NCBI RefSeq assembly: GCF_004365355.1 | Contig: NZ_SODP01000002.1 | Location: 1,733,846 to 1,797,845 of the forward strand | From: Kribbella pratensis | Lineage (GTDB): Bacteria > Actinomycetota > Actinomycetes > Propionibacteriales > Kribbellaceae | Direction: 5' to 3' | Length of the DNA stretch: 64,000 bases | In this document: positions 8,327-54,587 of the stretch, in pieces | Numbering within the stretch: position 1 is the first letter of the stretch | Layout: every line of letters begins with the position of its first letter | Notes under the pieces: model-generated | Told to the model about the DNA's origin: nothing | What the model saw: only the letters and a program-made list of their open reading frames with translations | The model's database searches: none | Translations under genes and position numbers: made by a program

Positions 8327-8372
8327 GACACTCCCGGGATGCTCGTTGCCGTTAAGCTGATCATGAAAGACA

Positions 8373-8504
8373 CACGTGCTCTGGGGTCGGTGAAATTCCG
8401 AGCCGGCGGTGACAGTCCGCGACCCGTGACTTCGCGAGAAGAAGCGGTTGACCTGGTGGAACTCCGGGACCGACGGTGAAAGTCCGGATGGGAAGACGCA
8501 CGTG
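8373..8504 (+). promoter_or_regulatory. FMN riboswitch (RFN element)
   Basis: The classic RFN conserved blocks occur in order: GGTCGGTGAAATTCCGA, CCGGCGGTGACAGTCCGCGA, TGGTGGAACTCCGGGACCGA and CGGTGAAAGTCCGGATGGGA. Helix P1 closes perfectly between CACGTGC (8373-8379) and GCACGTG (8498-8504). It lies upstream of ribB, a riboflavin gene commonly under FMN control; binding of FMN should lower ribB expression. Confidence 0.95.
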
Positions 8505-8511
8505 GCAGCTT

Positions 8512-13830: not shown

Positions 13831-15126
13831 CTAGCTCTTCGCCCAGGCGGAGATGATCTCCTGCATCTTCTTCGACGCCGCGTCCGGGGCGACCTTGCCT
13901 TGCAGCAGGTCGCTCTGCACGCTGAAGTACTGGTCGGCCTGCTTCTTCGGGAACGCCTGGTCCTGGATCGTGTAGAACCCGTTCTTGCCGTACTTCTGCG
14001 ACCACTCCGCCGACAGCGGCAGGGACTTCGGGTCCGGCTCGGCGCCCTTCACCGTCGAGGCGGTGATGTTCATCGCCTTCTGCGCCGCGGGCTGCACGAT
14101 GAAGTCGATCAGCGCGGCCGCCTTGTCGGCGTTCCCGGTCTTGGCGTTGACCATGTAACCCTCGACGAAGCCCGAGTGCCGCGCGGGCGACTTATCCGTC
14201 GGCAGCTCGAAGTTGCCGAACCCGGCGGGGCTCTTCTTCGCGGCCAGGATCGCGCCGGCCTCGGTCCACTGACCGGCGATGGTGTACGCCGTCTTGCCCT
14301 GCACGTACCACGGTTCGACATCGGACGGGTCGAGGGCGAGGGCACCTTGCGGCAGCCACTTCTTGTCCTGCCACTTCTTGAACAGCGTGAACGCCTCGAC
14401 CACCTCGGGCCGGTCCCAGCTCTCGGCGCCGGTCAGCAGCTTGTCGTGCAGCTCCGGCCCGGAGGTGTGCTCGAGCAGGTACTCGAACAGGCGCATGATG
14501 TCCCAGCCGTACTTGCCGCCGAGCCCGCACGGCGTGACCCCGACAGCCACCAGCTTGTCGTTCAGCGCCTCGAGCTCGGCGTACGTCGTCGGCGGCGCGC
14601 TCACACCGGCCTTGGCGAACAGCGACTTGTTGTACCAGGCACCTAGTCCGAGCTGCACGAACGGGACGCCGGACTTCACCCCGTCGAAGGTCATACCGCT
14701 GATCGCGGTGGTGTTGAGCTTGGAATCCCAGCCGTACTTGTCGTAGTACTTGCTCAGGTCCAACGCCTGCTTGGCCTTCGCGAACGGGCTGCCGATCTGA
14801 CCGCCCCAGATCCGCCAGACGTCCGGGCCCTTGCCGCCGAGCAGCTCAGTCCGCAGCTTGTCCGGGTACACCGCCGCGCCGGAACCGGGCAGGCTGTCGA
14901 CGGTGGTCGTCGTACCGTTCTGCTCGTCGAACTTCTTCACCTGGGCCTTGAGCAGGCCGATGGTCGAGTCGTCCTCGTAGGTGAACAGGCGCAGGTTGTT
15001 CGACGCCGCCTGCGTGGCTCCCCCGCCCGTCGACGTACCACCGCCGGTGCAGGCGGACAGGCCGGCGCCGAGTGCGGCGGCGGACGTGAGGCCGAGGAAA
15101 CCGCGGCGGGTGAACGACGTGCTCAT
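13831..15126 (-). CDS. Extracellular sugar-binding lipoprotein of ABC transporter
   Basis: About 431 residues. The N-terminus has twin arginines (FTRRGFLGL) and a lipobox ending at LSAC, so it is probably a Tat-exported lipoprotein anchored to the membrane. A Gly/Thr-rich linker precedes the bilobal solute-binding domain (family 1). The ATG at 15126 overlaps the stop of the upstream hydrolase gene (ATGA at 15123-15126), which decides the start. It should capture the sugar or glycoside for the two permeases that follow. Confidence 0.92.
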   Translation of the reverse strand: MSTSFTRRGFLGLTSAAALGAGLSACTGGGTSTGGGATQAASNNLRLFTYEDDSTIGLLKAQVKKFDEQNGTTTTVDSLPGSGAAVYPDKLRTELLGGKGPDVWRIWGGQIGSPFAKAKQALDLSKYYDKYGWDSKLNTTAISGMTFDGVKSGVPFVQLGLGAWYNKSLFAKAGVSAPPTTYAELEALNDKLVAVGVTPCGLGGKYGWDIMRLFEYLLEHTSGPELHDKLLTGAESWDRPEVVEAFTLFKKWQDKKWLPQGALALDPSDVEPWYVQGKTAYTIAGQWTEAGAILAAKKSPAGFGNFELPTDKSPARHSGFVEGYMVNAKTGNADKAAALIDFIVQPAAQKAMNITASTVKGAEPDPKSLPLSAEWSQKYGKNGFYTIQDQAFPKKQADQYFSVQSDLLQGKVAPDAASKKMQEIISAWAKS

Positions 15127-38868: not shown

Positions 38869-40170
38869 TCATCGTAGGTGCTCGACCGCGATCCGTTCGC
38901 CAAGCTGTTCGAGCAACGGTTTGGGCTCGGCGATGCACCGCTGGACGTCCGGCTCGAGCTCGGTGAGCGCGTACGCCGCTCGGACGCCGGCTTCCTGTAG
39001 CTGGTTCGACGCCAGCCGGTTGATGCCGCATACCGCGACCACCGGGATGCCGGCCGCCTTCGCGGCTACTCCAGCCACGGCCTTCCCGTGCAGGGTCTGT
39101 TCGTCGAGCGCCCCTTCGCCGGTGATCACGAGGTCGGCACCGGCAAGCTGCTCGTCGAACCCGACCATCTCCAGCACCAGCTCGATCCCCGGCCGAAGCT
39201 CCGCGTCCAGCAGCGCGAGAGCCGCGAAGCCGACCCCGCCCGCGGCTCCAGCACCCGGCACATCCCGCAGATCCCGCCCGGTCAGCTCGGCCACCTGGTC
39301 GGCCCACGCGCTGAGCCTGCCGTCGAGCTCGACCACTTGCGCCGGCGTGGCACCCTTCTGCGGTCCATAAACCACCGCCGCACCCCGGGCTCCCGTCAGC
39401 GGATTGTCCACATCACAAGCCACCACCACCCGCACCCCGCGCAGCCGATCCCGCAGGGCGAGGGTTGACCCCTGAGATGGCGGGTTCGCACCCGAGATTC
39501 CGGGGGGCCAACCCACCAGCTGAGGGGTCACCCCCGGAGATTGCGACATGCCGGCGATGAGGCCGGCGCCGCCGTCGGTGGAGGCGCTGCCGCCGATGCC
39601 GAGGATGATGCGGGTGCAGCCGGCGGCGACGGCTGCGGCGATCAGTTCGCCGGTGCCGTACGACGTGGCTGTCAGCGGAGCTGGAACGCCGCCGGGGAGC
39701 CGTACGAGGCCGGAGACGTCCGCGAGTTCAACCACCGCGGTGTCGCCCCGGCGGGCGTAGCCGGACTTCACCGGCTCACCCGTGGGGCCCGAGGCAACAA
39801 CCGGCACCAACTCGTACCCGGCGCCGACAGCGGCGGCAAGAGTCCCGTCGCCACCATCAGCCACCGGGACGGAGACCACGGTCGCGTCGGGGTGAACTCG
39901 CCGCACGCCGGCACCAACCGCGGCCGCCACCTCCGAACTCGTCAAAGTCCCCTTGAACTTGTCAGAGGCAACCACCACCCGAAACCCCGCCCCTCGCTCC
40001 GCTCGGGGCGGGGGGATTGGGCGGGCGTCCCGCATCCGGGGTGAGGGGATTGAGCGGCCGTCCCCCGCCCGGGCCGAGGGATCGGGGCGGACCGCGGCAC
40101 CCGCCGGCCCACGGGTGCCGTCCCACTCCCCTAGCGCGGGGACGGGGCCGGGGCGAGTTGGGTCGGTCAT
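38869..40170 (-). CDS. glxK: Glycerate 2-kinase carrying a repeat-derived insertion
   Basis: About 433 residues. The enzyme phosphorylates D-glycerate from the glyoxylate salvage. Core motifs: [19 protein letters not shown] (about 65-83), [36 protein letters not shown] and [18 protein letters not shown]. Two oddities: about 64 Pro/Arg/Gly-rich residues precede the usual N-terminus, and residues about 209-236 ([19 protein letters not shown] and on) derive from a palindromic repeat that replaces the variable segment family members have after STDGGAG. TGATG overlap with gcl sets the start. Activity cannot be assumed. Confidence 0.88.
39462..39546. repeat. Palindromic repeat element, copy B (in frame inside glxK)
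   Basis: This copy shares its centre and right side with the intergenic copy at 36562-36662 and keeps GGGTTGACCCCTGAGA on the left. It is an open frame in glxK, adding about 28 residues. The other copy read on the same strand gives a similar peptide (SQGSTPDMVGWPL against [15 protein letters not shown]), showing a common origin. Confidence 0.75.
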
Positions 40171-53418: not shown

Positions 53419-53466
53419 CACCGGCCGGCCTCGGACAAGCTGCTACTTGTCCAAGGCCGGCCGGTG
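53419..53466 (+). terminator. Large hairpin after guaD
   Basis: Left arm 53419-53439 and right arm 53446-53466 pair over 21 positions with one mismatch (core GGCCGGCCT, GGACAAG / CTTGTCC, AGGCCGGCC), loop CTGCTA. It is a probable terminator for the xdh operon. Its GGACAAG...CTTGTCC core recurs in two further hairpins around the DUF559 gene. Confidence 0.8.
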
Positions 53467-53492
53467 CCGTTGAGCCGCGGACTCCCGCCGGG

Positions 53493-53524
53493 GACCTCGA
53501 ACAAGCTATTGCTTGTCCAAGGTC
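53493..53524. repeat. ACAAGC/GCTTGT hairpin at the 3' end of the DUF559 gene
   Basis: Arms GACCTCGAACAAGC and GCTTGTCCAAGGTC pair around TATT with two mismatches. The right arm codes the last residues and stop of the DUF559 protein, so the palindrome forms its 3' end. Confidence 0.65.
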
Positions 53525-54468
53525 TCGGCGGCCTGTCCACGCAACCCGCGCCACAGCCGATCGGCCGTGGCGCGGGGCCGGTCGAGGTCGGCCCAGCCCA
53601 CGCGGATCATGCGATACCCACGCTCCCGCAGCCGGTCCTCGCGCCACTTCTCCGCGAGCACGGCCTCGCCAGTGCCGTACTTCAACGCCCCGTCGAACTC
53701 GACGATCAGGCCACCAGGCAACAGGAAGTCGACCCGCGCGATCAGCCGGCCGTCCTCGTTGTGGATCTCCACCTGCAGCCTCGGCGTCGGCAGCCCGTGG
53801 TTCGCCATCAACACCCGGAGACGCGACTCGCCCACCGACTCGCTCAGTCCGTCGGCGAACAGGACGGCGGCCCGCGCGGCAGCAGCGCCCCGCCAGCGCA
53901 GATGACGCAGTACGACGGCACGCAGCCGCTCGGGAGTCGTCAGGCCGCGACTGAGCGCGGCGTCGGCCAGCACCACGCCAACCTCGTACGACGATCCGCA
54001 CGTGGTCTCCACGATCGCGCGCTCGACGCTGATCGTCGCCAGGCCACCCACGTCGGCAATCTCGTCGACCGCGATCGGCGACAAATGCACCCGGACCGCC
54101 CGACCCACGCGACCGCGCCCCGCCCCGGGACGGGTGAAGTGCGCTCTGGCGAGGTCGAGCCCCCAAATCGGCAGCCCGTGAAGTACTGCGGCCGACTGAT
54201 GACTGACCACGACGTCGCCGAGTCGTTCGCTCGCCATCCGCACGCTCAGCCGATGCAACCGGATCGCGCGATCCCACGGCGGCTCATCGGCCGGCCAGTC
54301 CCGCGTTTCGACGTACGAGTTGTAGCTCAGCCTGCGCCATTGCCCACTGCGCAGGCGTCGCCGCAGCTCATTGTCGCTGTACCCCGCGGCCATGACGTCG
54401 GCACGGGTGAACCACCCGCCGCGTTCGGCCGCGATCACTTCCAGTCTCTTGTTCACGCCAGAGAACAT
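53506..54468 (-). CDS. AbiEi-like/DUF559 protein (Vsr-type nuclease fold)
   Basis: About 320 residues. The N-terminus GGWFTRADVMAAGYSDNELRRRLRSGQWRRL is the AbiEi-antitoxin-like winged helix. The C-terminal third is DUF559, related to very-short-patch-repair endonucleases: LIARVDFLLPGGLIVEFDGALKYG holds the acidic metal ligands, and EKWREDRLRERGYRMIRVGWADLDRP finishes the fold. Actinobacterial genomes carry many such genes, and no cognate toxin is seen next to it. It sits alone between two convergent catabolic genes and is bracketed by related hairpins, so it looks like an inserted cassette. ATG 54468; longer readings run into the deaminase gene. Confidence 0.85.
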   Translation of the reverse strand: MFSGVNKRLEVIAAERGGWFTRADVMAAGYSDNELRRRLRSGQWRRLSYNSYVETRDWPADEPPWDRAIRLHRLSVRMASERLGDVVVSHQSAAVLHGLPIWGLDLARAHFTRPGAGRGRVGRAVRVHLSPIAVDEIADVGGLATISVERAIVETTCGSSYEVGVVLADAALSRGLTTPERLRAVVLRHLRWRGAAAARAAVLFADGLSESVGESRLRVLMANHGLPTPRLQVEIHNEDGRLIARVDFLLPGGLIVEFDGALKYGTGEAVLAEKWREDRLRERGYRMIRVGWADLDRPRATADRLWRGLRGQAAETLDKQ

Positions 54469-54534
54469 GCACCGCGCACGCCGTACCCGGACGGCCCGAG
54501 CGCCGATCTGTGGAAACCTCGGACCCTCACCGGT

Positions 54535-54566
54535 GACCGCGGACAAGCAATAGCTGGTCCGCAGTC
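54535..54566. repeat. ACAAGC/GCT-GGT hairpin upstream of the DUF559 gene
   Basis: GACCGCGGACAAGC pairs with GCTGGTCCGCAGTC around AATA with two mismatches, and CGCTTGTCCG follows at 54572-54581. This mirrors the hairpins at 53419-53466 and 53493-53524 on the other side of the gene, in DNA without coding capacity. Confidence 0.6.
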
Positions 54567-54587
54567 CCCATCGCTTGTCCGACGTGC

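Follow-up and report, generated by a model that had tools for sequence, protein, structure and literature searches.

The gene and its hairpins

The window, a stretch of 64,000 nucleotides of the Kribbella pratensis genome (G000 among the genomes compared below), carries on its reverse strand an AbiEi/DUF559 gene encoding 320 amino acids (53506-54468, with the ATG at 54468), flanked by guaD on the forward strand and by a second amidohydrolase gene on the reverse strand. The initial annotation placed the gene alone between two purine genes; the placement is right, and the purine names must be taken as inferred, because Pfam matches both neighbours to amidohydrolase families only.

Three hairpins with a common core lie around this gene, as had been noted from the start. 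H1, a strong hairpin at 53419-53466, follows guaD. H2 (53478-53537), the downstream terminal hairpin of the element for which we argue below, comprises a 58-nt palindrome unit (53480-53537) and an inverted-repeat arm (53478-53524) and, just as first proposed, overlaps the gene end and supplies its last codons and stop. H3 (54522-54581), the upstream terminal hairpin, has its 58-nt unit at 54522-54579 and its arm at 54535-54581; its core repeat starts at 54537, which puts it 68 nt ahead of the ATG (a distance originally given as 67 nt). Together the arms of H2 and H3 form an imperfect inverted repeat of 47 nt that is 77% complementary. Fold z-scores on the two strands are -7.5/-8.6 for H1, -2.9/-4.4 for H2 and -5.5/-7.7 for H3. 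The core, GGACAAGC-N4-GCTTGTCC with at most one mismatch, is found at three places in the 8.37-Mb genome, and these are H1, H2 and H3 only, so that the cluster is not a matter of chance. The same three places reject GGACAAGC as a genome-wide repeat, and its occurrences at window positions 14856 and 18969 are without a visible hairpin partner. This core is special to the window genome and its nearest relative, other orthologues having other cores. Sigma-70 and U-tail terminator scans gave no match, and the only known RNA family matched is an FMN riboswitch located elsewhere in the window (8372-8505; Rfam RF00050, 88.6 bits).

AbiEi/DUF559 genes are hugely abundant in actinobacteria, where they are labelled as antitoxins or as unknown. 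Structure comparison of a predicted model of the window protein (pLDDT 91.4, pTM 0.88) shows a resemblance between residues 2-206 and the Streptococcus agalactiae AbiEi antitoxin (Z 10.6, rmsd 7.0), as well as between residues 1-298 and Rv2827c (Z 8.1). Further along the chain, residues 211-314 come close to the I-Bth0305I catalytic domain (3r3p_A; Z 12.5, rmsd 2.3 over 95 residues), and the same nuclease part also resembles Vsr (Z 10.1). The protein is accordingly modelled as an AbiEi-like N-terminal part (2-206) joined to a putative Vsr/EDxHD-like nuclease (209-315) with D247, E257 and K263. These two domains fill the chain, and a DDE, HuH, serine or tyrosine transposase is absent from it. 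Among 42 aligned homologues, Pfam finds AbiEi_4 in all, DUF559 in nine and the Y1 transposase family in none; the window protein itself matches nothing in NCBIfam, nor any solved structure when these are searched by sequence. A DUF559 gene has been assigned earlier to the EDxHD homing family (PMC9403480) and there is a study of a DUF559 protein as a Vsr-like repair enzyme (PMC12907096); the accessible portions of these two papers do not mention palindromic repeats.

Matched repeats and the proteins they flank

In 12 of 38 Kribbella genomes, among the matches listed, guaD and the deaminase gene have this gene between them, and one genome (G002) has a truncated copy at this locus. Elsewhere, as in G032, G006 and G015 (among others), the gene is absent and its two neighbours are adjacent; G032 has an unrelated hairpin at the gene-less locus. 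Hairpins flank the gene in all twelve genomes; their core varies from genome to genome, and within one genome the two hairpins are alike. H1, which the initial annotation had made part of the bracket, falls outside the unit: it is common to G000, G019 and G034, and since G000 and G034 share it even though their inner hairpins differ and their DUF559 proteins are 69% identical (when guaD reaches 98% and the second deaminase 93%), H1 is not a unit boundary. An alignment of the guaD-locus palindromes as 58-nt units (24 flanking and three solo copies) has 81.3% of its cells base-paired, compared with 31.9-48.8% when slid, and 20 of its 27 pairs have changes on both sides.

For the genus at large, the 220 nt upstream of each gene were compared with the 220 nt downstream (Smith-Waterman, with a threshold of at least 25 that was chosen in this analysis). 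The sample is of 94 homologues of at least 41% identity from 35 Kribbella genomes, among the matches listed: 29 genomes other than G000 contribute their best locus each, G000 contributes five genes, and 60 further near-full-length matches complete the set. Partial matches (some near contig ends) and several further matches were left out, and L018 (a second copy of the window locus) and L024 (which gave no match) were dropped. Upstream and downstream repeats match in 78 of the 94 (median score 38). Control ORFs, taken from 20 arbitrary stretches of 20 kb, do so in 11 of 215 cases, with a median of 17. A divergent DUF559/AbiEi lineage (L017, L165-L184), present in most Kribbella genomes, has few repeats: one of 23 divergent homologues reaches the threshold. 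Wider windows raise the counts to 82 of 94 and two of 23. Mismatched upstream-downstream pairs drawn from the 94 reach the threshold in 13% of 2000 cases, which exceeds the control because lineages share palindrome families. The 16 genes scoring below 25 in the 220-nt windows include the window gene (19) and its nearest orthologue, L026 (19); for the window gene the low score probably reflects the fact that part of H2 is inside its coding end. A consistent inverted orientation is not evident within Kribbella, whose repeats are palindromes: of 82 loci, 46 have them inverted and 34 direct, with two ties. The initial annotation had expected the same hairpins at other DUF559 genes of this and related genomes. 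As far as sequence comparison goes, what these loci have in common is the mutual match of the two hairpins of each; the hairpin sequence itself differs between loci.

Over 3825 non-syntenic pairs, protein identity and palindrome similarity are correlated with a rho of 0.42, a value reached by none of 999 label permutations (the largest gave 0.07). Palindrome scores of at least 25 are found for 0.5-1% of pairs below 50% protein identity, for 24% at 55-60%, for 38% at 60-65%, for 36 of 51 (71%) at 65-70%, for nine of ten at 70-80% and for all five above 80%. Gene copies that are 80-84% identical and reside at unrelated loci have similar DNA that starts at the outer edge of the upstream palindrome and continues through the gene, and little or no match in their outer flanks. 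Judged by these alignments, hairpin sequences differ from one gene lineage to another, and at unrelated loci they follow the similarity of the proteins.

The order to which Kribbella belongs has a homologue (E at most 1e-40) in 144 of 196 genomes. A second family of the order, f3, was sampled at 30 loci (one of them, L321, left out because its flank is too short). At all 29 testable loci the upstream and downstream repeats match, with scores of at least 39 and a median of 63, and the best orientation is inverted every time; f3 cross-pairs score at least 35 in 3.2% of 812 cases, and a within-locus control has a median of 25.5 and a maximum of 38 (n=28), with 35 reached in three of 28. Nine f3 loci that were examined closely have inverted repeats of about 75-125 nt with hairpins within. 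Nine other regions score 35-93, seven inverted and two direct (three of the nine recur among the 30 loci of the f3 set). The flanks of L301 and L303, from other genera, have several copies of a repeated unit and are more complex than one inverted pair: L301 has a direct repeat scoring 92 and L303 has TTCATCAAGGGATGCAG units.

The residues D247, E257 and K263 are kept in 93 of the 94 Kribbella repeat-group genes, in all 30 f3 genes and in none of the 23 divergent-group genes, most of which are without repeats. This links the repeats to an intact nuclease, although some caution is called for because a single lineage makes up most of the divergent group.

Empty, solo and occupied sites

The empty sites that the initial annotation proposed to look for do exist, and at one site, that of the paralogue L019, empty, solo and full states are found in different species. 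In G012 and G032 the site is empty (...CTAGATTACT joined to CAGCGGC...); in G019 a single palindrome of about 87 nt is inserted exactly at that junction; and in G000 and G034 the junction is occupied by palindrome-gene-palindrome, the G034 gene being truncated. A target-site duplication at this single junction would be of at most 2 bp. L016 is absent in G012 and G034 and in G019 seems, from its sequence, to be reduced to a remnant of the gene; L022 is absent in G012.

Solo palindromes far outnumber gene copies. One of them, of family A, lies within the window at 39462-39534, in frame inside a glycerate kinase reading frame. Searched against its own genome, the family A palindrome yields 77 match pieces, both strands and fragments counted, and the paralogue L020 has a family A piece just downstream and a palindrome of the same type upstream. 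The glycerate kinase spot is occupied by family A in G032 also, by palindromes of the guaD-locus DUF559-flanking family in G013, G022, G024 and G033, and by another hairpin-like insert in G029, G021 and G011; inspected by eye, it has no palindrome in G019, G012, G034, G026, G023, G004, G006 and G016. Site L079 has family A in G000, G013 and G032, another palindrome in G019 and G034, and a plain short hairpin in G012; site L076 has family A in G000 only, among six genomes. At G000:C1:2971100, 2971274 and 2971447 there are three alike palindromes about 174 nt apart, with the core ACAAGCAATACCTTGT.

The initial annotation took hairpins without the gene to count against a cassette. They occur, as REP-like dispersed solos, and are commoner where a related gene is present: for the guaD-locus family the median count is 45 in the 24 genomes that have a homologue of at least 55% identity and 3 in the 14 that do not (one-sided p 2.6e-5, phylogeny being ignored and identities being taken from among the matches listed). 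These counts cover both strands, with at most 146 candidates scored per genome by a model built partly from the same genomes. Three genomes without a gene of at least 55% identity (G003, G009 and G015) still have 32-36 palindrome matches.

A palindrome family with its own nuclease?

The gene and its two flanking hairpins quite probably make up a single element, about 1.1 kb long, which is the member of a REP-like palindrome family that carries the gene. Matched terminal repeats, concerted change of repeat and protein, precise presence and absence and dispersed solos are all seen in the sequences, as are the company of repeats and intact nuclease and a lineage with a degenerate nuclease that mostly lacks repeats. 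Present or absent as a unit, gene and hairpins look like an undescribed kind of mobile DNA. The hairpin-delimited cassette of the initial annotation is to that extent supported; its spread by its own enzyme, that is, that the nuclease itself moves the hairpins, is something we infer.

The nearest known arrangement is REP/RAYT (the REPtron), in which a gene has palindromes of its own kind and many short palindromes lie elsewhere, palindrome and protein co-evolving, as they do here (PMC8266576, as far as its accessible text goes). Here too own-family palindromes flank the gene and solos are dispersed, yet the enzyme class differs: the REP/RAYT enzyme, TnpA-REP, is a HuH protein close to the IS200/IS605 transposases, whereas a HuH/Y1 transposase is not found here and AbiEi plus a Vsr/EDxHD nuclease stands in its place. 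The units are also unlike those of REP/RAYT in being about 58-110 nt long and, in f3, inverted; a GTAG or CGTC tag at the foot of the palindrome is a further REP/RAYT feature, going by the title of PMC3733652. Insertion sequences are resembled in the single gene, the size of 1.1-1.45 kb, the precise empty site and the terminal inverted repeats (in the window element and at 29 of 29 testable f3 loci), but a known transposase domain is not found, there is one copy per lineage and genome, and a clear target-site duplication is not seen at the one resolved junction. The highest identity among 115 within-genome gene pairs is 67%; no recent transposition is seen, therefore, and a simple insertion sequence is disfavoured for want of recent duplicates. 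The nuclease domain has the fold and the conserved acidic residues of the EDxHD homing endonuclease I-Bth0305I, but unlike such enzymes it is encoded outside any intron or intein, between hairpin repeats, and is joined to an AbiEi-type part. That part shares the N-terminal fold of the AbiEi antitoxin and Rv2827c, from which the protein differs in lacking an adjacent toxin partner gene in the window and in having a C-terminal nuclease. Searches of open-access literature turned up no link between a DUF559 or AbiEi gene and either palindromes or inverted repeats.

Another enzyme might instead move the repeats in trans, leaving the AbiEi-nuclease as cargo or as a host factor that polices palindromes. 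That each lineage has one gene copy in a genome, with no recent duplicates, and that solos are so much more numerous would suit such an arrangement; we consider it unlikely, since the repeat sequence changes along with the AbiEi-nuclease protein, the repeats accompany an intact nuclease, and no further gene is seen inside the palindrome-gene-palindrome unit in the window or its guaD-locus relatives. Rather less likely is it that the hairpins are ordinary bidirectional terminators, homogenized within the genome by gene conversion, and that the gene merely finds itself between two of them. H1/H2 and H3 do follow the 3' ends of guaD, the DUF559 gene and the second deaminase gene, and at several sites solo palindromes fill convergent-gene slots that hold plain short hairpins in other species, so that a terminator role is also likely. 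Against terminators as such stand the rarity of matching flanks among control genes, the palindromes that track the protein at unrelated loci, the long inverted repeats at every testable f3 locus, the copy in frame inside glycerate kinase and the divergent homologues that mostly lack the repeat pair. An AbiEi-type regulator (an antitoxin or defence gene) that uses the upstream palindrome as its operator, the downstream copy being incidental, is very unlikely despite the resemblance of the N-terminal half to AbiEi antitoxins: the two copies are equally regular, the neighbours in the window are amidohydrolases and not an AbiEii-like toxin gene, dispersed solos would be unexpected, and a fixed GTTRTCCACAG motif is the better operator candidate.

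The local form of this DnaA-box-like motif, GTTTCCACAG, is at 54508-54517 on the reverse strand, with TCCACAG beginning 46 nt ahead of the start codon. Among the 94 repeat-group genes, 82 have TCCACAG, mostly as part of GTTRTCCACAG, beginning 44-47 nt ahead of the start codon; among 223 control genes, two have it anywhere within 120 nt upstream. Its presence 44-46 nt before the start codon of 21 of 23 divergent genes means that it is not specific to repeat-bearing genes. Table 1 of PMC4285127 gives TTGTCCACA and TTATCCACA as high-affinity DnaA boxes of Streptomyces coelicolor/Mycobacterium tuberculosis and E. coli.

If the element does belong to its nuclease, the protein would bind its own palindrome, whose two-fold symmetry might accommodate a dimer, and the Vsr/EDxHD domain would nick or cut DNA there. 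Repair would then copy or delete, at other sites, either the palindrome by itself or palindrome-gene-palindrome; solo copies could arise by copying of a lone palindrome or by recombination between two flanking ones. I-Bth0305I dimerizes on a target of nearly 60 bp (PMC3943268, in its accessible portion), which by analogy would fit the 58-nt two-fold palindrome. Through putative binding of DnaA, the motif fixed some 45 nt upstream may couple expression with replication. The broader proposition is that AbiEi/DUF559 proteins serve as enzymes for a distinct class of mobile palindromes, with a Vsr/EDxHD nuclease guided to its own palindrome, copying it and co-evolving with it, a DnaA-box-like switch, and a domesticated lineage that has lost nuclease residues and palindromes; we would put this at an even chance. 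If true, it would provide a function and a dispersal route for one of the commonest unexplained actinobacterial gene families, explain families of intergenic and in-frame palindromes, and constitute a second, unrelated solution of the RAYT/REP type, with a homing-endonuclease-type nuclease in place of the HuH transposase. It makes testable the dissemination of DNA by a nuclease without a known transposase domain. The divergent lineage, possibly domesticated, offers with its missing nuclease residues a natural comparison for domestication; several of its members are reported with a TAG inside the match.
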